Source: Oscillospiraceae bacterium (GTDB lineage Bacteria; Bacillota; Clostridia; Oscillospirales; Oscillospiraceae). From it: a DNA stretch of 33,435 nucleotides. Each line of letters begins with the position of its first letter. Position 1 is the stretch's first letter. Under the pieces are notes generated by a model. That model worked only from the letters and a program-made list of their open reading frames with translations, was not told the DNA's origin and ran no database searches. This document shows positions 1,120 through 14,704 of this stretch, one piece after another. Both the position numbers and the translations under genes were made by a program. Location of the stretch: contig WQTE01000018.1 of assembly GCA_009786445.1 (NCBI GenBank), forward strand, positions 337-33,771. Reading direction: 5' to 3'.

Positions 1120-2058
1120 CTATAATAGGTGTTCCTTAGTTAATGTAATCATAATTTTTTTCTTTAAAGTCGACATACTGCATTCATCAAAGGTTATTGA
1201 TAAAGGATACAGGTAAATCTTACCCAGTTTTGGAAAACAGTATAGAATGCCAAACTGGTACTTAAGTTTATTAACCCAAGTTTTAATTTTATCTGATTCT
1301 ATAAATTTTTTATACTCAGATTTCACCGTTGATGTATTATCGACAATAATTTCGCAATATATGTCAACGGAGTTGATGGTTACAAATATATCCATATTAT
1401 ACTCATCAAACACTAATTTTCCATCAATCCCTTGGGCATTAAGCAATTTGATAACATTTTCGAACTCTTCTCCATTAGAATAGGTGCACGACTTAGTCAA
1501 CTCAAGTGCATAGAGACCATCTAAGAGGACTAGAAGGGCACCGTTATCCGTAATTTTGTCGCAAATTCCACCCTTGATTAAGTTAAGATAACTACGTTTT
1601 TTGTTCATATTACATACATGCTTGTGCCTTGCTCGGCGGATATCAACGCTTACTCTGGAGTTTAACTTGAATGTATTAATATACAGTTCACCTTTAGAAT
1701 TACTATAGGTGAAAATAAAATTGTTCAAACTGTCACCACCCGTAATTGGTGGATTTTTCCCACTGAATATATAATCACGACAGGGGTCAAGTAACTCATC
1801 ACTCAAAAATTCTCCTTTTGCAGAGTTGCATTTTTTACAAGAGTAGTATAAATTTTCGAATAAATGCACTTTGGATGAATATTTGAGGTCGGCTTTTGGT
1901 ATAAAATGGTCAACCTCAAAATAATCTGAGTTTGCAAATCCGGTTTCCTCTTCGTGTAACCGACAGTATGCGCATGTAAATAAAAAGTCATTTCTCAGAT
2001 ACGTTTTACACTTACTGGATCTGTAGTTTGCCCATCTGAATTTTCGTTCATACTCCAT
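1120..2058 (-). CDS. HNH endonuclease with large uncharacterised C-terminal region
   Basis: 312 aa; CAYC...DYFEVDHFIPKA...NLYYSCKKCNSAKG is a canonical Zn-type HNH signature. Confidence 0.85.
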   Translation of the reverse strand: MEYERKFRWANYRSSKCKTYLRNDFLFTCAYCRLHEEETGFANSDYFEVDHFIPKADLKYSSKVHLFENLYYSCKKCNSAKGEFLSDELLDPCRDYIFSGKNPPITGGDSLNNFIFTYSNSKGELYINTFKLNSRVSVDIRRARHKHVCNMNKKRSYLNLIKGGICDKITDNGALLVLLDGLYALELTKSCTYSNGEEFENVIKLLNAQGIDGKLVFDEYNMDIFVTINSVDIYCEIIVDNTSTVKSEYKKFIESDKIKTWVNKLKYQFGILYCFPKLGKIYLYPLSITFDECSMSTLKKKIMITLTKEHLL

Positions 2059-2070
2059 AGTTACTCACCA

Positions 2071-2565
2071 TTATTGCATAGTATCAAGTTTATTTTTGAT
2101 TTCTTTAAGAATATCTATCGATTTTTCTTCAAGCACCAGTTGGGTTGCGATATTATCACGTATGATGTTTTCTTTTCGCAACTTACAAGCTCTTTTTATT
2201 TTATCTACAACATCCTTGTGACGTGCGACCATATCCGCTTTGTTAAGCTCATAATCATAATCGCCAAACTGATCAGAGAAGTCATTTAGTTGGTAATTAG
2301 TAAGTAACACAGCATATATTGTACTGTCGTGCTTACGAACTTCTCTCAATACATCAATGCCTTTATACGGCACTTGCTTCTCCAAGTGATAGTCAATAAT
2401 AAGAAAATCAATATTATTTTCCAATATAATCTCATAATATTCTTCTAGTTTTGAAGGAAGTTGCCTTAGGCACACCACACTCAGTCCTTGAGCTTCCAAA
2501 AACCGAGTATATACTTGAGCGTTTGCCTCTTCATCTTCAATAAATAACCCTGTAAAATTGTCCAT
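2071..2565 (-). CDS. Single-domain response regulator (receiver only)
   Basis: 164 aa; IEDE acidic pair, LIIDYHL phospho-Asp, LLTNY Thr, LNKAD Lys; only a short helical tail after the receiver. Confidence 0.85.
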   Translation of the reverse strand: MDNFTGLFIEDEEANAQVYTRFLEAQGLSVVCLRQLPSKLEEYYEIILENNIDFLIIDYHLEKQVPYKGIDVLREVRKHDSTIYAVLLTNYQLNDFSDQFGDYDYELNKADMVARHKDVVDKIKRACKLRKENIIRDNIATQLVLEEKSIDILKEIKNKLDTMQ

Positions 2566-2568
2566 TAT

Positions 2569-5040
2569 TTAATCATCCCCTTTCGGCAGTGAAACTTTAA
2601 ACTCTGCACCGCTTAAGATTTCAGAGCGATGCACGCTGATTGTTCCTCCATAACTATCAACAATGTCTTTTACAATATTCAATCCTAACCCAATTCCTAT
2701 TTCATCATCTTTCGTTGTATAAAAGGGTGTAAAAATAGTTCGCTCCTTACCCTTCGGTACTCCCAGTCCGGAATCTTCCACAGCAACGATAACATGTGAG
2801 ATACTTTGGGTAACACTTACTATGATCCGGCGGTATTGCAACTCTCTAATCTTTACTTGCTCAAAAGCATTAGTAATCAGATTAATAATTATAGACTCAA
2901 AGTCGATTTGCCTCATATTGTAGTAGCACTCCTTTTTGCAGTTTACTGCCAAGTCTATGTTATATGTTTTTACTATTGTAGAATAAAGTCTGCAGACTTC
3001 ATTCAACGCCTCAGCCAGATTTAAATTTACAGTAGCTTCTCTCTTTTTCTTTCGTAAAAAATTAACTATTAAGTTGCTATATGAAAACACCCTGCTGAAG
3101 TCATTAGATATAGTTGTGGCCACATCAGTTATGTCATCAATCATTAACTCTCCCTTTAGGTGGGAGTCTATTAAATATATACTTGCTGAAATTCTGCTCA
3201 CTATATCGCTTGTTTCATGCCCAAATGAACCGGTAAGCATGCCTAGTGAAGCGAGGTTTTTATATAAATTAAGCTCACTTTCCTGAAACTCAATTTTTTT
3301 TCGGTAAGCAGTTTTAGTGTCGCTATAATGCTTGTTGTATTCGTTTTGAATTGATTGTAGTTTTTTTTCCTTATCTACCGAATCTGCCACATAAGTGTTT
3401 ATTAATTGAATTATCTGATTACGAGAACTATCATCAACTCGGTGCGAAATTTCGTTCAAACTGCTGACAACAGGGTCTCGGCGATACCGTTGTTTAAATG
3501 CTTCAAACTGCTGGTCAATCTGCTCTTTCTCGCTTTCAAGCAATTGTAAATTATCTTGCTCATCCAAATAGGCTTGTCGCCTGACTTCGCTTATTAATTC
3601 TATACAGCTCGTGAGAAAATCTACAATCTGTAAATATGCCTCATTTTCAATAATTCCTTCTCTGTTTGTCGCATCTACTAGTAAAGGATTAGTATCATCT
3701 CCTATTCTGACCATGCCAATTACTTGATTATTTCCAACAAGATATCCATGTGTGTCTCTGACCTTTCTTTGATCTAGAAGGAGCCAATCGTTCCCGATGT
3801 CACCATATGGCTTTACTCTAAAACCATCGCGGTAAATTTTTATCCCACAGTATGTGTCCAACACCTTTCGAGCAAAGAGAAAATTAAATCCGGCTTCTGC
3901 ATTTGAGAGATGAGCACTTTCCCGTAAAAAAAAGTAAATTTCTACGCCCAAATCGCCACATAATAATGGTTGTTCATGTTTTATTTCAACTTTATCTTTT
4001 TTCCCTTTTTTGTCTGTATATGAAATTGAGACTTTTTGCGAATTGTCAGAAATTTGACCTTCTACTTTTGCATAACATAAGTCAAGTATTTCATTTGATA
4101 ACACAATATCTTCTATTTCGAAACCTGGTGCACTAAGCTCAATCTTAAAAGGATATTTCTCGTGTACGAATGGAGAAACCAGTAGACGCAACTCCTTTTG
4201 GAGCTTGTTGATATCCTTTTGTGACCATTCATCTCGTAACCCTTCCATGATAATAACTAGTCCAGTTTTTGGATTAGTTGGGTCATTTTTGTCATATAGC
4301 TCATTAATGTGTGTTAGGGGGTGGTTTTCTGTTCTGTTATTTAGGATTTCCAATTCATTTTCAACATCGTGGATTAGCTGCTCAGTATTTTCATATTTAA
4401 TTAATATAGGCAACACATCATTTTCGAGCACTGTAAGGATACGTGTGTTGTAGAAATCCGTATAAACAAAAGAATCTCCTCCCAAAATTTTTATAACCTC
4501 ATGTTTATCATCGGATGTTACATTCTTCACGAGGAAAAAGTTGTCAAGTTGTCCACTAACATACTTAGCAGCCGAAGAATCAGGGGAATTCTTGAGTACG
4601 GTAATTCTCTGTAATAATTGTGAGATGTCTATTGTTTCGTATTTATTCCAATTAATACTAACCTTAAAAGGTGCTTCATCAGAAGAAACGGAATACACCG
4701 TGACTTTTTCTGCAATGCGCTCAACAGAAAACCTACCAATCCCTTTTTTTCCGGTTTTTCTCCGACCTTTAGGTGTGTATGGATCTGTAACCTTGTTGTT
4801 AGTGCCGATGACCATCCACTTTCTCTCAAAATCATCTTGTGTCATGCCACATCCGGTATCTGATATAATGATTCTGCTATTTGGTGTGTTTGGTTGGTCC
4901 AGTACGATTTTCACAGCAGAGGCATCAGCATCATAAGCGTTTTTTATTAACTCGACCAATGCTGTAACAAAATCTGTCACGAGTTCTCTACCAAGTTGAC
5001 TGATATGTCGAGAGGTTGTCTTAAAATTTAGTTTTTTCAT
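2569..5040 (-). CDS. Dual GHKL protein: N-terminal MutL/MORC-like ATPase, C-terminal histidine kinase
   Basis: 823 aa; N-term ELIKNAYDA, DTGCGM, GRRKTGKKGIGRFS, then GIKIYRDGFRVKPYGDIGNDWLLLD; C-term SFGHETSDIV (H-box), NLITNAFEQV (N-box), VEDSGLGVP, IFTPFYTTK, GIGLGLNIVKDIVDSYGGTISV. Confidence 0.88.
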   Translation of the reverse strand: MKKLNFKTTSRHISQLGRELVTDFVTALVELIKNAYDADASAVKIVLDQPNTPNSRIIISDTGCGMTQDDFERKWMVIGTNNKVTDPYTPKGRRKTGKKGIGRFSVERIAEKVTVYSVSSDEAPFKVSINWNKYETIDISQLLQRITVLKNSPDSSAAKYVSGQLDNFFLVKNVTSDDKHEVIKILGGDSFVYTDFYNTRILTVLENDVLPILIKYENTEQLIHDVENELEILNNRTENHPLTHINELYDKNDPTNPKTGLVIIMEGLRDEWSQKDINKLQKELRLLVSPFVHEKYPFKIELSAPGFEIEDIVLSNEILDLCYAKVEGQISDNSQKVSISYTDKKGKKDKVEIKHEQPLLCGDLGVEIYFFLRESAHLSNAEAGFNFLFARKVLDTYCGIKIYRDGFRVKPYGDIGNDWLLLDQRKVRDTHGYLVGNNQVIGMVRIGDDTNPLLVDATNREGIIENEAYLQIVDFLTSCIELISEVRRQAYLDEQDNLQLLESEKEQIDQQFEAFKQRYRRDPVVSSLNEISHRVDDSSRNQIIQLINTYVADSVDKEKKLQSIQNEYNKHYSDTKTAYRKKIEFQESELNLYKNLASLGMLTGSFGHETSDIVSRISASIYLIDSHLKGELMIDDITDVATTISNDFSRVFSYSNLIVNFLRKKKREATVNLNLAEALNEVCRLYSTIVKTYNIDLAVNCKKECYYNMRQIDFESIIINLITNAFEQVKIRELQYRRIIVSVTQSISHVIVAVEDSGLGVPKGKERTIFTPFYTTKDDEIGIGLGLNIVKDIVDSYGGTISVHRSEILSGAEFKVSLPKGDD

Positions 5041-5049
5041 TATGACCCC

Positions 5050-6954
5050 TTACATATTCATTACGATTTCAGTTTCCTGCTCAGTTAAATTGTACAGTTC
5101 ACAGACAAGCCTGTCGAGCTCATTTCTGCTTTCAAGTAAATTCCCTTTCTTCACTGAAACAAAATCTGCGATTGATTTTGATCCTCTCACATTGAGCGGT
5201 AAGGAGTTTAACTCGTTTGCAGAGACCTGAGTATTACCACTTATGCTGCTAAAAAGATAATTAATCAATTTTGAGTTTAACATGCCAAGGAAGAAACAAA
5301 GCGTACTGTCCGGAAGTAATTCATTTCGCCCAACCTTACTGCATAAAAAATTAACATGGTTTTCTAAATAATAAATCGCATAATTATCCAAAAATTCCTC
5401 TGACATAATGCATGCTTTAAACCTAAATGCTCTGTCAAAATTTGTTGTCCGCTGAATTAGGAGCTTCCTTCCACGCATTATTAAAGGTTTTGTTTTATTT
5501 ACTATTCTTGCATACTGCTTTCTCTCAGGGTTCGCCAACTTGCTTTGATAATTAAACAAAGCAAGTTGAATATTCCCTCCGTAAATTACAGGAATGCCTT
5601 CTGAGGCTGAATCAACTAATATTTCTTTGTGCTGATTCCAAACAAATAGACCATTAGAAAACTTTTCTCCAGACTGTTCATCTTTTAACAGAGCGCCATT
5701 TGCGTATACTTTATCAATTATATCATACATCTTAATGTTTTTAGCTATAACAAACGTATAATTATTATTTTCACCCATCATGATTTTTGCGCGTTTTATC
5801 TTAAAATCCGAAACTATAGAATCGGCTTTATCGTAAAACTGGATTTGAGTTTTGCTGTTTAGTATTTTTTTCATTTCCATGCATATGATCAAAACAGCCT
5901 GTTCAGCTCCATAAAACACATTAACTCTCGGTTGAATGCTTTTGATGGATGAAATTCTCAAATCCCGGAACTTCGATCTGAGATTTTTGAAATATAACCC
6001 GGAACGAATAGACTGAGGAACTATAAAGCACATCGTGCCCTCATCACTTAAATGAGATACACCCCAGTACATAAAAAAAGAATAAATATTTGGCTGTCCG
6101 TATACGATATGCTTATATCCAGTGAGGTTCTTCGTAGAATTTGTATTCATTTTGAAGAAAGGAGGATTTCCTAAAATGATAGAAAACTTTGAATCAATCT
6201 TCTCTGTTACTGTATTTCTCAATTGAACATACTTAAAGCACAGACTCTCATCTTTCAACATTTTTACGAGGTGTTTTCTGTTCAATTCATTCTTAGAGCA
6301 CAAAAGCAATACGCAAAATACGTTAACTTTTGTGGCAATAACTGCAAAGGGATTAACATCATATCCGTGTAAATTGCTATTGACAAAATCCAGTACCTCT
6401 GCAAAATCCCACAACTCACATAGCTTTCTAACAGTTTCAGCTAATATAACTCCAGACCCACATGCTGGGTCAACAATTTTCTCCTCTGGTTTCAATTTCT
6501 TAAGCTTTTCATCAATTGAAATCAGCATTTTTTTCACAATTAAAGGCGGTGTGTAAAATTGTCCAAACACTTTCTTTACTCCTCTGTCTAAGAAGCAATC
6601 ATGTTTGTTTAGTAAGTTAATAATGCACTCAATCCCCGCACCCTCATCAACCGAAAAACTAATTGGTTCATCTGGCACAAACCAAGAAAAAAAGCCATCT
6701 GAATCAAAGAACTTTATTAAACCAGTGTAATTAGTGTGTATGCCAATACATTTGCTTAGCATATATACAATAACATGAATATATGCAATTTCATAACAAA
6801 TTGATTCAATTAGAAGGCGGTTATCTAGTTTCAAGGTTCTATGAACACCAGAGTATTCGTGTTTGCTATAATAATGTAATTCAAAGGATTTCGGAAGTTT
6901 TTTGTTTACGTTCTTTGATAGGTTTATGATTTTATCAAGGATTTCTTGGTGCAT
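5050..6954 (-). CDS. N6-adenine DNA methyltransferase (TaqI/Eco57I-like)
   Basis: 634 aa; FGQFYTPPLIVKKM, motif I DPACGSGVIL, motif IV ILGNPPFF; C-terminal target-recognition-like region. Confidence 0.88.
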   Translation of the reverse strand: MHQEILDKIINLSKNVNKKLPKSFELHYYSKHEYSGVHRTLKLDNRLLIESICYEIAYIHVIVYMLSKCIGIHTNYTGLIKFFDSDGFFSWFVPDEPISFSVDEGAGIECIINLLNKHDCFLDRGVKKVFGQFYTPPLIVKKMLISIDEKLKKLKPEEKIVDPACGSGVILAETVRKLCELWDFAEVLDFVNSNLHGYDVNPFAVIATKVNVFCVLLLCSKNELNRKHLVKMLKDESLCFKYVQLRNTVTEKIDSKFSIILGNPPFFKMNTNSTKNLTGYKHIVYGQPNIYSFFMYWGVSHLSDEGTMCFIVPQSIRSGLYFKNLRSKFRDLRISSIKSIQPRVNVFYGAEQAVLIICMEMKKILNSKTQIQFYDKADSIVSDFKIKRAKIMMGENNNYTFVIAKNIKMYDIIDKVYANGALLKDEQSGEKFSNGLFVWNQHKEILVDSASEGIPVIYGGNIQLALFNYQSKLANPERKQYARIVNKTKPLIMRGRKLLIQRTTNFDRAFRFKACIMSEEFLDNYAIYYLENHVNFLCSKVGRNELLPDSTLCFFLGMLNSKLINYLFSSISGNTQVSANELNSLPLNVRGSKSIADFVSVKKGNLLESRNELDRLVCELYNLTEQETEIVMNM

Positions 6955-7012
6955 TGTCTAGCATTCCCAACATTAAGTCTTTGTTCCCTCCATAAAGATA
7001 TAATTAAAAGCT

Positions 7013-7040
7013 ATTATATCATCAATTGCCGAAAAAGCAA
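7013..7040 (-). promoter_or_regulatory. Putative sigma-A promoter for the four-gene operon
   Basis: On minus strand TTGCTT (7035-7040), 16-bp spacer, TATAAT (7013-7018), about 55 nt upstream of the methyltransferase start. Confidence 0.5.
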
Positions 7041-7413: not shown

Positions 7414-7677
7414 TCAGAATTTACTGTCTGGCATATTGCACAACTTAAGGAAAGCAGTATATTCGCTTTTTCTTTGCAAATACAGTATAATCCCGCGTTT
7501 GACAGTTGCGTAGTACATAAAGAGTCCCATCTGTACTATCGGGTTCGGTTTATGTTCCTTTGAGTAACCGTATTGCTTCAACCCTTCCTCTTGTTCTATT
7601 TCAAAAAAATAGTTTGTGCAGTCGTAATACAGCACTCCAGGCTTGCGGTCAATTACTTTTGTGCTCCGCTTGTACAA
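7414..7677 (-). pseudogene. IS1634-like transposase remnant
   Basis: VLYYDCTNYFFEIEQEEGLKQYGYSKEHKPNPIVQMGLFM is the typical catalytic-region signature of these transposases; only about 87 aa remain and the sequence diverges after MGLFM. Confidence 0.75.
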
Positions 7678-9944: not shown

Positions 9945-11288
9945 ATGGTGTTAAAACGAAAAATATACAATGAATTGCTCGATTGGAAAAACGAAAGCAA
10001 TGGTGCAACAGCCTTGCTTGTTAAGGGTGCGAGGCGAGTTGGAAAGAGTTATATTTGCAGGAAATTTGGCGAAGCCGAATACGGCAGTATGGTCTTTATA
10101 GATTTCAGTAATGCAGACAATACGCTCAAAGACTTCTTCTACAAAGACACCTATAACCTCGACATTTTTTTCGCAAAAATTTCTGCATACCATGATGTCC
10201 CTTTGCGTGAGAGAAATACCTTATTCGTGTTTGATGAGGTGCAATCATTCCCAAGGGCAAGGCAGCTGATTAAGCACCTGGTAGCCGATGGCAGATATGA
10301 TTATATTGAGACAGGTTCGCTTTTATCGATAAAACAGAATGTGAAAGATATACTTATTCCTTCCGAGGAAGACGATATTGAGATGCACCCAATGGACTTT
10401 GAAGAATTTCTGTGGGCTATTGGAGCAGATACAACTCCTCAACTGCTGCAAAGCTGTTTTGAGCAAAAAATGCCTCTGGGGCAAGCTTTGCATCGCAAAG
10501 TTATGAATGATTTTCGCCAATATATTCTTGTCGGTGGTATGCCGCAGTCGCTCTTAGCTTACATAAATGATAAAGATTTTGCAGCTGCGGATAAAGCTAA
10601 ACGGCGTATTTTATCGCTCTACCGCAAAGATATTGCAAGATTTGCCCAAGGTTATGAAAGTAAAGTTTCTGCTATTTTTGATACAATACCCGGGCAATTA
10701 TCGAAAAAGGAAAAAAAGTATAGGATAACTTCCCTTGGAAAGAATGCGAGGTTGCGCGAATACGAAGATGCTTTTATGTGGCTTGCAGATGGAATGATAA
10801 CTAACCCGTGTTTTAATGCCACGGATCCGAATGCCGGATTATCTCTTAGTTTGGACCACCGCACGCATAAACTTTATATGGCAGACACCGGACTGCTTGT
10901 CACCCACGCATTTGCGGATAAGAGTTTTTCTGACAATGATTTGTATAAAGCCATTTTATTGGATAGACTTTCAATCAACGAGGGCATGATAATGGAAAAC
11001 GTAGTAGCACAAATGCTACGAAGCAGTGGTCATCGCCTATTCTTTTACTCACGAAGCGATTCGGATAATCATTCAAGCAGGATGGAAATAGATTTTCTTA
11101 TTAGAGGTGACAAGAAAATATGCCCTATAGAGGTCAAATCATCAAATTACCGAAAACATTCATCTCTTGATAAGTTCAGGCAGAAATTCAAACACGCTCT
11201 TGGCGATGCATACATACTATATGGCAAGGACTTAATGATTAAAGAAGGTATCATTCACCTGCCATTGTACATGGCGATGTTTCTGTAG
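9945..11288 (+). CDS. AAA ATPase, AAA_14/DUF4143 type
   Basis: 447 aa; Walker A VKGARRVGKSY, Walker B TLFVFDEVQ, IETGSLLSIK, C-terminal EIDFLIRGDKKICPIEVKSS. Confidence 0.85.
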   Translation: MVLKRKIYNELLDWKNESNGATALLVKGARRVGKSYICRKFGEAEYGSMVFIDFSNADNTLKDFFYKDTYNLDIFFAKISAYHDVPLRERNTLFVFDEVQSFPRARQLIKHLVADGRYDYIETGSLLSIKQNVKDILIPSEEDDIEMHPMDFEEFLWAIGADTTPQLLQSCFEQKMPLGQALHRKVMNDFRQYILVGGMPQSLLAYINDKDFAAADKAKRRILSLYRKDIARFAQGYESKVSAIFDTIPGQLSKKEKKYRITSLGKNARLREYEDAFMWLADGMITNPCFNATDPNAGLSLSLDHRTHKLYMADTGLLVTHAFADKSFSDNDLYKAILLDRLSINEGMIMENVVAQMLRSSGHRLFFYSRSDSDNHSSRMEIDFLIRGDKKICPIEVKSSNYRKHSSLDKFRQKFKHALGDAYILYGKDLMIKEGIIHLPLYMAMFL

Positions 11289-11362
11289 CGGCATAATACT
11301 TTTCGGTTTAAAAGACAATAGCGGCGATATTTTTTGTAAACTGTGTGAGTGCGAGGTGAGTG

Positions 11363-12535
11363 TCACCACTCACTCAAAAGAAAGTCTTTGATGTTTGCGT
11401 GCACTATTCCTTTTTGGCTGAAATTTACTTCATCCATCGAAACTACATACTTGGGATAGTTATCTTCAATCCTTAACAGACTTCGGAATTCACGATTTCG
11501 CGTAATTTCGTCTGCCATCAAGTAGGTCACTTGGATGTAAATGGATTCACTGTTTTTAACTCCAACAAAGTCTATTTCTTCATCATATACAGCCCCTACT
11601 GTGACTTTATATCCTCGCCTTAACAGCTCAAGGCAGATTATATTTTCGAGTATCGCACTAATGTCTTGCACTTGTTTTCCATAAACAACTTCGCGCAGAC
11701 CATGATCTGCAACAAAGTACTTTTCTGAAACTTTTAGTATCTTTTTTCCAATAATATCTTGGCGTTTAAGTTTGTAGAAGAGATACGCCTCTTCACAGGC
11801 TTTAATATAGTTAAGCACTGTATCGGTGCTAACTCTTCTGTGTTCATTTTTAAAGTACTTTGAAATAGAAGTTGCTGAAAATGTTTTGCTGATGTTAGCT
11901 AAAACATAAGTAACAATCCTGTCAAGCAAGTCAACGTCTCGGATATTATTTCGCTTTACAACATCCTTTAATACTATCGAATTGTACAAGTCTTCCAAAT
12001 AAATATTTATTGCGCCTTCGTCATTTATGATGTTGTTTATGAAAGGCATGCCGCCCAATCGCAAATAGTCGCTAAAACCTTTGCCTTTGTTGAGCTTCAA
12101 AAATTCATCGTATGAAAGTGGATACACTGTAAATTGCACATATCTGCCCGCAATGAGTGTCGCCAACTCGCCTGATAGTAATTTGGCATTGGAACCGGTA
12201 ATATAGATGTCCGCATCAAAATCGACTCTGAAAGAATTTATAACCGACTCCCAATTTGTCACTTCTTGAATTTCATCAAAGAAGAGGTACCACTTTGCTT
12301 TGCTCTCGCCAACCCTATTAACGACATAGCTGTATAACGCATCTGCATTTGTGTACTCCGCATTTTTTTTGCTTTCAAAGTTGAGATATATGCTTTGGCT
12401 AAACTCGTTAATCTCAGCTCGCAGCAGTTCAAGTAATACGGATTTGCCGCTTCGCCTGATGCCTGTAATAACTTTCACAACATCTTTCCCAATAAATGGG
12501 CGAATTTGCTCCATGTACAGCTCGCGTTTAATCAT
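11363..12535 (-). CDS. AAA ATPase, AAA_14/DUF4143 type
   Basis: Walker A ITGIRRSGKSVLL, WYLFFDEIQEVTNWE, YITGSNAKLLSGELATLIAGRYVQF; start refined to MIKRELYM (12535) behind GGAGAAAG; supplied ORF extends to 12619. Confidence 0.85.
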   Translation of the reverse strand: MIKRELYMEQIRPFIGKDVVKVITGIRRSGKSVLLELLRAEINEFSQSIYLNFESKKNAEYTNADALYSYVVNRVGESKAKWYLFFDEIQEVTNWESVINSFRVDFDADIYITGSNAKLLSGELATLIAGRYVQFTVYPLSYDEFLKLNKGKGFSDYLRLGGMPFINNIINDEGAINIYLEDLYNSIVLKDVVKRNNIRDVDLLDRIVTYVLANISKTFSATSISKYFKNEHRRVSTDTVLNYIKACEEAYLFYKLKRQDIIGKKILKVSEKYFVADHGLREVVYGKQVQDISAILENIICLELLRRGYKVTVGAVYDEEIDFVGVKNSESIYIQVTYLMADEITRNREFRSLLRIEDNYPKYVVSMDEVNFSQKGIVHANIKDFLLSEW

Positions 12536-12649
12536 AAAAATTCTTTCTCCGTTTCGCATTACATACAGCACATCATACACCATTATAATCGTTGATGCAA
12601 GCAAAAAAGGCAAAACCATCGACTATGTTCGATAACTTCCGGTAAGGTG

Positions 12650-12732
12650 AAAAAAAGCAGCACTTATTTCACGGAAAAGCAAACTCGCCGAGTATCTTAA
12701 ATCGGCGAGTAATTCTTGCTTATTTCATTTTT
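12650..12732 (+). pseudogene. Remnant of the SMR/EamA-like gene (right repeat copy)
   Basis: Aligns to 690-771 within the intact gene at 616-960, then jumps to sequence matching 969 onward, consistent with a 203-bp deletion at an ATTTTT microhomology. Confidence 0.8.
12683..12710 (-). terminator. Probable intrinsic terminator of the SpoIID-like gene
   Basis: Perfect 9-bp inverted repeat ACTCGCCGA/TCGGCGAGT, followed on the minus strand by TTGCTTTTCC. Confidence 0.5.
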
Positions 12733-12748
12733 GCTGTCGCCTAAGCTC

Positions 12749-14704
12749 TTAAGCTCTGCCGAGCCAGCGGCCGTCTGCGGCAAATCTGTGGCGTACACCG
12801 TCTATGGTGTGTGTTCTTCCGCCTACCATTGCTCCATTTGCCCGCATATAGTACCACTGTCCGCCGGTTTCTACCCAACCTGTTGCCATCACTCCGTTTT
12901 CTTCCAGGAAGTACCAGTTGCCACCGCTGCGTACCCAGCCTGTTGCCATCGATCCGTTTGAGTTTAGGAAATACCATACGTTGCCCCAGCGTACCCAGCC
13001 GGTCGCCATTGCTCCGCTCTGATGCAGTAAATACCATGACCCGCCTTCTAAAATCCAGCCGGTTGCCATTACTCCGCTCGGTTGCAGATAGTACCAGTGC
13101 CCATCGGTGTGTACCCAGCCCGTCGCCATCGCTCCGTTCTGATGCATGAAGTACCATTGATTTTCGTGAGAAAGCCAGCCTGTCTGCATAATTCCTGCAC
13201 TGTTGAAGAAATAGCTCTCGCCGCCTATACGTTGCCAGCCTTGTGCAAATCCGCCGGCATTGAACTCATACCGCCAGCCGTTATTAGTTTGCCGCCAGCT
13301 TCCTGCCTGTGCCTGTTCGCCGATAGGCGGCATCTCCATTTCTACAATTTCAACACCTGTGAAGTAGTGGGCTATGATTTGAGCGGCTGTCCTTCCGTGG
13401 ATACTTGCCATTGATTGTGCACCCCATTGACTCAAGCCGACGTTATGACCCCAGCCTGTGCCCCTGATTGTGACGTTTGTACCCACCGGAATAGCCAACC
13501 AGTCGCCCTCCGCAACACCGCTTGTTTCAATATCAAAACGTTGAGAACGCATCCCGTTTACGGTGTTAGCTGTGGTTTGAACCCCGAACAAGGATTGAAG
13601 TGCAGCACGACCTGTAAAAAGCTGTGTGAGTGCCCTTGGGCCAGAGCCACCTCCATCCACATAAACCTGAACACTGCGCACATTACCCGTAGGTGTGCGT
13701 TCAGCTACGCGAATCCACGTTACATTATCAAAGGCTTCATTGGGACGAGCAGTTCTAACACGAGCTGTAAGTGTCGCCTGCGGTACGTTATGAGTCCAGT
13801 TGTAATGAGTGATTTGGTGTGCAACATCAAGCTCAAAGGTGTCATTCACTCCGCGCAGATATGGTCTTGCCACGCCGCCGGGCCATACATTTTCGTTGTT
13901 TTCCGAACCGCCGCCGTGTGATGAAGAATAGAGCGTTTCTGCAAGTCTGCCGCCATGTGTTACAACCATGCCGCGAGTACTTGTGACCGATTGATTGGTT
14001 CTCTCATTTGCTCTGCGCCGACCCCAATACACCTGGCAGCACGCTTCAATGCAGAGGTCGAATCTGTTATCCCTTGACTTTTGAGGGGTATTTGCCATTC
14101 TGAACATCGCAAACGAACGCGCTGCAATCGCTTGCGCCCGTAGAGCTTCAATATGCCAATTAGGACTCATTTCGTAGGGAACAACACCTTTGACATAGTG
14201 CTCAATGTCCACAATATTGACGACTGTGAGCAAATTGCCGCGCCTTTCAAATCTAAAGCTCCCAAAAAAAGTATAGTCGGCACCATTAAATCTTGTGTTG
14301 CTTCTGTATCTCGTGGATGGATTCTCTCCGATGGGTCTCACGCCGAACAGTTCTGCCGTTCCGTTTTGCGCAAATGTGTGTAACACAGCATTATTGTCAA
14401 CACGTCTGATAACTAGCTGATTCGCCTCGCCGCCGACAGCTACAACGACCCTTGAGGCATCTGTAGAGCCCAGCAGAGTGAAGTTGTCATTTATTGTGTT
14501 GAATGTTCCCCATTCAAAGCCATTACCGGGATTGTTTGCTAAATCAGCGGACGGCACTGCTGTGGTGCCCCAATTCAATCCGGCTCTAATCATCCTGCGT
14601 GAAGGCATACCAGCCGAGGCAGATTCGGTTACAGTAAGTGACATAACTACGCACACTGCAAGTAATATCGCTGTGAATCCGGTCAGCTTTTTAATGAAAC
14701 GCAT
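12749..14704 (-). CDS. SpoIID/LytB-domain protein with C-terminal cell-wall (choline/glucan) binding repeats
   Basis: 651 aa; signal peptide; DIEHYVKGVVPYEMSPNWHIEALRAQAIAARSFA; tandem GW...WYYL..(S/N)G.MATGW units. Confidence 0.88.
   Translation of the reverse strand: MRFIKKLTGFTAILLAVCVVMSLTVTESASAGMPSRRMIRAGLNWGTTAVPSADLANNPGNGFEWGTFNTINDNFTLLGSTDASRVVVAVGGEANQLVIRRVDNNAVLHTFAQNGTAELFGVRPIGENPSTRYRSNTRFNGADYTFFGSFRFERRGNLLTVVNIVDIEHYVKGVVPYEMSPNWHIEALRAQAIAARSFAMFRMANTPQKSRDNRFDLCIEACCQVYWGRRRANERTNQSVTSTRGMVVTHGGRLAETLYSSSHGGGSENNENVWPGGVARPYLRGVNDTFELDVAHQITHYNWTHNVPQATLTARVRTARPNEAFDNVTWIRVAERTPTGNVRSVQVYVDGGGSGPRALTQLFTGRAALQSLFGVQTTANTVNGMRSQRFDIETSGVAEGDWLAIPVGTNVTIRGTGWGHNVGLSQWGAQSMASIHGRTAAQIIAHYFTGVEIVEMEMPPIGEQAQAGSWRQTNNGWRYEFNAGGFAQGWQRIGGESYFFNSAGIMQTGWLSHENQWYFMHQNGAMATGWVHTDGHWYYLQPSGVMATGWILEGGSWYLLHQSGAMATGWVRWGNVWYFLNSNGSMATGWVRSGGNWYFLEENGVMATGWVETGGQWYYMRANGAMVGGRTHTIDGVRHRFAADGRWLGRA
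12780..13300 (-). repeat. Tandem ~60-bp units encoding ~20-aa cell-wall-binding repeats
   Basis: Repeated ATGWV...WY.L...G.M in the C-terminal part of the SpoIID-like protein. Confidence 0.85.

Follow-up and report, generated by a model that had tools for sequence, protein, structure and literature searches.

Four adjacent genes of an Oscillospiraceae bacterium, encoding an N6-adenine DNA methyltransferase (MTase), a histidine kinase with two GHKL ATPase domains, a stand-alone receiver and a predicted HNH nuclease, form a real and intact operon. We consider it rather probable that they constitute a mobile anti-phage (or anti-plasmid) system in which a DNA modification mark, a His-Asp phosphorelay and a nuclease are joined. 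The operon lies in a stretch of 33,435 nt of assembly GCA_009786445.1 (contig WQTE01000018.1, positions 337 to 33,771 of the forward strand), referred to below as the window, in whose numbering its features are given. The trigger of the system, the direction in which the receiver acts, the target of the nuclease and the defence role itself are what we infer from the comparisons reported here. The wider proposition, on which our judgement is evenly balanced, is that the operon represents a modular defence family with a constant MORC-type sensor kinase and receiver, acting by direct phosphorylation, and interchangeable HNH or ComEC-type metallo-beta-lactamase (MBL) nucleases and MTases, in which a His-Asp phosphorelay would license restriction by controlling the nuclease rather than its transcription.

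Organisation and occurrence of the operon

The operon consists of four uninterrupted open reading frames (ORFs), all on the minus strand and separated by intergenic gaps of 9, 3 and 12 bp: the N6-adenine MTase (5050-6954, 634 amino acids (aa)), the dual-GHKL histidine kinase (2569-5040, 823 aa), the stand-alone receiver (2071-2565, 164 aa) and the predicted HNH nuclease effector (1120-2058, 312 aa). The strand and gaps read by the initial annotation, which had been made from the letters alone, agree with the ORF coordinates, and all four of its domain calls are backed by Pfam matches above the cut-offs.

A profile scan with one genome per species recovered 80 relatives, and plasmid records supplied more. 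The ORFs of these relatives were called mechanically and the loci were picked by kinase similarity, on which the four-gene count depends: the kinase adjoins a receiver, an HNH protein and an N6 MTase in 24 loci besides the window (25 in total), and three further kinase–receiver–HNH loci stop at a contig edge. In the 25 complete loci the four genes are adjacent on the same strand, often overlapping by 1–8 bp. A chance association is excluded because the gene set recurs in these 24 other loci and in at least nine phyla (Bacillota, Planctomycetota, Verrucomicrobiota, Kiritimatiellota, Pseudomonadota, Bacteroidota, Chloroflexota, Deinococcota and candidate phyla); the co-occurrence elsewhere for which the initial annotation had suggested a search is thus found. 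The same annotation had seen in the order MTase first, nuclease last an arrangement favouring self-protection, which does not hold in general: the MTase gene comes first in 17/25 complete loci and last in 8/25, so the gene order is not a rule.

The distribution of the system is sporadic (6/396 genomes of the order; 1/19 in the genus, by receiver family) and several copies of the operon are carried by plasmids. No empty insertion site was seen in neighbouring genomes. A single-sequence scan of viral contigs found no relatives, and phages yielded a single weak partial match only. The window receiver as sole query gave no plasmid match, and a query with the Pantoea kinase, receiver and HNH protein had no match of any kind in E. 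coli genomes.

The sensor kinase and its receiver

Pfam recognises both GHKL domains of the kinase, as HATPase_c_3 (aa 24-136, 80.7 bits) and HATPase_c (aa 711-820, 94.9 bits). The former (4633-4971, minus strand, as are all features of the operon) is of the MORC/MutL/Hsp90 type and carries E30, N34 and D61-x-G-x-G-M, that is, the N-terminal GHKL domain with ATP motifs that is expected of MORC and paraMORC proteins. The N-terminal 304 aa gave MORC3 as the top match among PDB sequences (E 4.8e-4), with TRAP1/Hsp90, MORC4 and PMS2 also matching, and the label 'MORC/MutL-like' attached to this part by the initial annotation is therefore well founded. The BbrUII/HgiDII restriction-enzyme family aligns to the same N-terminal stretch with 81.9 bits, under its 550-bit cut-off. 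The conserved alpha/beta middle region that follows (aa 260-462; 3655-4263), with P411, G413, D418-W-L and R460 invariant, shows mixed strands and helices in the AlphaFold model of the kinase (mean pLDDT 79); a direct S5 match was not obtained, and by analogy with the paraMORC architecture (PMC2292703) this region may correspond to the S5-like transducer of MORC and paraMORC.

A coiled coil then leads into the DHp helices (aa 467-661; 3058-3642; model helices 467-520 and 537-661), which align with the DHp of histidine kinase crystal structures. The predicted phospho-acceptor His608 (3217-3219), followed by Glu609, aligns with the His-Glu of 3a0r_A. The C-terminal catalytic ATP-binding (CA) domain (aa 711-820; 2581-2910), with N720/N724, D756-x-G and G782-x-G-x-G, has Foldseek matches to HK853 and others, and the kinase thus possesses the two features of a two-component sensor, a phospho-acceptor His in the DHp (H608-E609) and an intact CA domain with its N and G motifs. 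The DHp/CA region has the kinase of the 3a0r entry as its top sequence match, and the receiver profile likewise finds its top match in this entry, in chain B. Across the 27 kinases of the clade 47 positions are invariant, including E30, N34, D61, G63, G65, H608, E609, N720, N724, G758, G782, G784 and G786; an equivalent invariant His is present in 34 kinases of other clades. Neither the domain map nor the model shows a transmembrane segment, a dedicated prediction not having been run. In a four-gene locus on a Klebsiella variicola plasmid (L005, 6486-8756) the kinase gene is fragmented by frameshifts.

The receiver matches Pfam Response_reg above the cut-off and has a predicted phospho-acceptor Asp58 (2392-2394), the acidic pair E10/D11, T89 and K109. 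The receiver Asp and the conserved Thr and Lys are all retained in the clade (D58 in 27/27, T89 in 93% and K109 in 89%), and the residues of a His-Asp phosphorelay, as initially annotated, are intact and conserved in the alignments. No output domain was found by Pfam, and in the receiver alignment of 25 relatives a recognisable DNA-binding domain is absent, the C-terminal tail being charged and probably helical. The window receiver also belongs to the curated family NF052378 (LM5578_1851_RR; 228.7 bits vs a cut-off of 150). Pairwise identities correlate most highly between kinase and receiver (r = 0.94, vs 0.82 for kinase and HNH protein and 0.78 for kinase and MTase), a value that reflects common descent and is no more than compatible with the two being a cognate pair.

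The methyltransferase and the HNH protein

The MTase matches Pfam Eco57I (60.8 bits) and N6_Mtase (56.1 bits), both above cut-off, and PADLOC MTase_II (182.6 bits); against the Alw26I/Eco31I family TIGR02987 its score is under the cut-off. It carries motif I DPACGSG and motif IV N263-P-P-F, the NPP being retained in about 96% of 46 relatives, and so provides the DNA methyltransferase with intact catalytic motif that a restriction–modification (R-M) system requires.

The linked nuclease of such a system is likewise present with an intact active site. The HNH protein (AlphaFold model mean pLDDT 90.6) matches Pfam HNH with 34.4 bits and has PtuB as its nearest PADLOC family (52.7 bits). All eight HNH/zinc residues of its beta-beta-alpha-metal domain (aa 29-83; 1810-1974), namely C29, C32, H51, N69, C74, C77, N78 and K81, are kept in 29/29 relatives. 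Compared with the PDB, the HNH profile is closest to the HNH domain of retron I-A PtuB, and PacI matches as well. The initial annotation had overlooked that the protein has a further domain in its C-terminal part, of PD-(D/E)xK fold and Hjc-like by Foldseek (aa 197-306; 1141-1470), the matches of which comprise Hjc resolvases, I-Ssp6803I and SPARDA chains (E about 1e-3). As D223 and E236 of this domain are kept and the canonical Lys is absent in the alignment with six close relatives, it may bind DNA or a partner without cutting. Only in the Bacillota subclade to which the window belongs do HNH proteins exceed 300 aa and carry a C-terminal extension; in most relatives they measure about 160–260 aa.

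Exchange of nucleases and methylases around a constant core

When effector labels were placed on the kinase tree, a quick one with several long branches, 10 changes were required vs 52 when the labels were shuffled, so that effector type tracks kinase lineage. In a sister clade, an MBL-fold protein stands directly after the receiver (13 loci in the tree clade); its profile matches the MBL domain of ComEC/Rec2 (E 8.9e-17) and has a conserved HxDxDH metal motif. Another clade possesses a long receiver, then a protein of 230–280 aa, together with an N6 MTase, and a further clade with receivers of 340–450 aa has cluster-4 MTases in 10/23 loci (C5 type: PF00145 in L009). The MTase types found beside the kinase–receiver core thus comprise N6, C5 and another N6 subfamily. 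In the loci L023 and L024 the kinase, receiver and HNH protein are still close to those of the window and the methylase has been replaced within the operon; on sequence comparison, the methylase is an exchangeable module too. Because the sister clades retain both kinase and receiver when nuclease and MTase are swapped, these two proteins form the constant core. The receiver, for which Pfam found no DNA-binding output, adjoins an interchangeable nuclease, in support of the initial annotation.

The 230–280 aa family found after the long receiver (L067, 10286-10999, and eight relatives) has conserved HxD, HP and H residues and reaches the cut-off of no Pfam family; in most cases its gene lies before or beside that of an N6 MTase, and it is a possible candidate effector. 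Four other proteins in the effector position (L108, 3-845; L095, 6628-7476; L031, 9634-10272; L109, 157-837) share a conserved His-Gly and a Cys. Their caspase/CHAT-like reading by eye was confirmed neither by Pfam (all four), nor by PADLOC (L031 and L095), nor by the PDB. An apparent C5-type MTase lies upstream in L109.

Relation to known systems

That a two-component pair may be tied to R-M genes is already known, as a prediction. Bellieny-Rabelo et al. predicted in 2021 that HEF_HK/Response_reg_2 pairs (PF19191, PF19192) form an R-M-linked two-component system (PMC8011034). Like the window, where the same architecture is found, these pairs have a soluble kinase of the form HATPase_c_3, DHp and HATPase_c, proposed to be a paraMORC relative, beside an adjacent receiver and R-M genes. 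Unlike the window, they have a long receiver protein (query 600 aa) and an MTase that is mostly C5 with Vsr, and their description includes no short receiver accompanied by an HNH or MBL effector encoded separately (PMC8011034). Neither PF19191 nor PF19192 matches the window proteins at E ≤ 0.1; in the sister clades 3/34 kinases and 1/30 receivers match. An earlier instance is the Listeria island LGI1 (2010), in which R-M components (1850, 1853) flank the kinase LM5578_1852 and the response regulator LM5578_1851 (PMC2834635). This two-component system with R-M, noted in passing and with function unassigned, is likened to the window through the receiver family NF052378.

The GHKL side of the system has its own precedents. 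Iyer, Abhiman and Aravind described in 2008 paraMORC GHKL ATPases in operons with an MTase and, for paraMORC1, also an HNH nuclease; unlike the window, a histidine kinase fusion or a receiver is not described for these systems (PMC2292703). VcSduA, a paraMORC-type GHKL and nuclease protein, is an experimentally proven defence in which the GHKL glutamate is required (PMC12137116). The nearest relative of the window HNH effector is the PtuB of Septu and retron I-A (by the PADLOC score and the PDB). The operon has a PtuB-like HNH protein and no PtuA-type gene, which sets it apart from Septu (PtuAB); unlike the window operon, retron I-A has a reverse transcriptase, and activation in the window operon would be via the receiver. 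Detocs is not known to have an MTase or a GHKL N-terminus. Compared with its set of kinase, receiver and receiver–effector (PNP or another effector), the window differs in having one receiver, a separate HNH effector and an MTase. Like the window, Detocs employs a histidine kinase and a receiver, with an enzyme as effector, for defence; unlike it, Detocs has three genes and its best-described effector is an ATP-cleaving PNP (PMC11249213).

PADLOC, which the initial annotation had recommended as a check, gave partial matches only for the operon, and no model covers the kinase. The initial statement that the set cannot be matched to a named defence system finds a partial answer in LGI1, NF052378 and the sister branch of 2021. 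Among the openly licensed literature we found no papers combining phosphorelay, HNH, methyltransferase, response regulator and phage defence, nor the name LM5578_1851 as such in the text; this absence is weak evidence, since only openly licensed papers were covered. The branch represented by the window and the exchange of effectors appear to be undescribed in the searchable open literature.

Promoter and flanking sequences

Upstream of the operon, a promoter-like sequence can be read directly (7013-7040, minus strand; TTGCTT-16 bp-TATAAT, with TGA before the -10), combining a perfect -10 TATAAT and a weak -35 TTGCTT. The single promoter-like sequence of the initial annotation stands as regards TATAAT with its extended -10, but the -35 is poor. 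Since a consensus scan of the upstream region did not list the 7040-7013 site and promoter-like sites are not enriched there (30 vs 25.6 ± 4.7 in shuffles), the promoter is plausible only. A short minus-strand ORF further upstream (7414-7677) resembles a transposase remnant by eye and has no match in Pfam. Sequences at 690-779 and 969-1009, in or beside an EamA-like gene, recur about 12 kb away as 91–100% identical repeats (at about 12650-12767), and two convergent AAA_14/DUF4143 ATPase genes occupy 9945-12619, a few kb from the operon.

Discussion

We propose a course of events in which the MTase would mark the host DNA with N6-methyladenine, and the MORC/MutL-type GHKL domain and the middle region of the kinase would form an ATP-driven clamp that shuts on DNA lacking the mark or altered by a phage, or on the MTase retained on such DNA. 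The long coiled coil would relay this closure to the DHp/CA core, leading to autophosphorylation of His608, and the phosphate would pass to Asp58 of the stand-alone receiver. The phosphorylated receiver would then bind or release the HNH protein and so switch on the nuclease, which would destroy the invader's DNA or that of the entire cell. MORC and MutL relatives are DNA-handling clamps and the MORC-type ATPase occupies the sensor position, from which we infer that it may detect DNA that is foreign or lacks the modification, or else an MTase that has stalled. Gating of the effector by receiver phosphorylation would be the most economical account of the downstream part, because the receiver has no transcription-factor part, adjoins the effector and persists when the effector changes.

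Since HNH and MBL nucleases can stand in for one another, recognition of the MTase's site is probably not a task of the effector; the distinction of self from non-self would therefore sit on the sensor side, and abortive action becomes a serious possibility. The same phosphorelay would then release an effector without sequence specificity, whose attack on the DNA or RNA of the infected cell kills or stalls that cell; the MTase would be a self-marker or bait and not a shield for a site-specific enzyme. We hold this version to be quite possible, if short of probable. The swapping of effectors among unrelated folds (HNH, ComEC-type MBL and two further families) would be unlikely if they read the MTase's site, retron I-A PtuB effectors come nearest to the HNH protein in the PDB profile comparison, and Detocs, a known two-component defence, destroys ATP (PMC11249213). 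At the same time, every complete HNH locus has an MTase, which is not general among abortive systems, and the C-terminal PD-(D/E)xK-fold domain of the HNH protein could confer DNA specificity in the window subclade.

The absence of a DNA-binding domain in the receiver also makes gating a better explanation than transcriptional control, in which the two-component pair would behave like a control (C) protein and adjust how strongly an otherwise ordinary type II R-M system is expressed. Such a role is in keeping with the fact that most two-component pairs regulate transcription and with the 2021 proposal of signalling that controls R-M 'directly or indirectly' (PMC8011034). We nevertheless consider it very unlikely, given a 164-aa window receiver with no HTH or other output domain, receivers in 25 relatives with no recognisable DNA-binding domain, and a kinase and receiver locked to effector type, which would be needless for a generic regulator. 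It is also highly improbable, in our opinion, that the kinase does not work as a kinase at all, its GHKL domains instead powering restriction as a DNA motor of the MORC kind and the receiver and DHp being structural remnants. MORC and paraMORC proteins do occur in R-M operons with no phosphorelay (PMC2292703), and the BbrUII/HgiDII GHKL restriction-enzyme family matches the kinase N-terminus. Remnants would decay, however, and the phospho-acceptor His, the N and G motifs of the CA domain and the receiver Asp are kept in essentially all members, distant ones included.

Several points weigh against the phosphorelay-gated defence system that we favour. DNA is not necessarily the substrate of PtuB-type HNH proteins. 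The MTases of L023 and L024 are of another subfamily (17–18% identity to the window MTase, vs 48–49% for the kinase), so the kinase is not tied to one methylase, and the function of kinase and receiver could be unrelated to the MTase. No receiver–HNH fusion was seen among the relatives, and an apparent receiver–MBL fusion in L091 was rejected as an ORF-calling artefact, its N-terminus having no receiver match and being probably an out-of-frame overlap. Finally, we found no phage, restriction or methylation experiment on any member in the searchable open literature.

If the proposed scheme is true, it is the phosphorelay, and not a nuclease reading its site, that decides on restriction, and the nuclease becomes a replaceable output. 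Receivers would gain a direct job in DNA defence, and a role would be found for MORC-type ATPases, which have been on record in R-M operons with no mechanism since 2008. The question would be open to point mutants (H608, D58, E30, H51 and NPP), and the constant kinase and receiver with their differing outputs would offer natural swaps for finding what the sensor detects.

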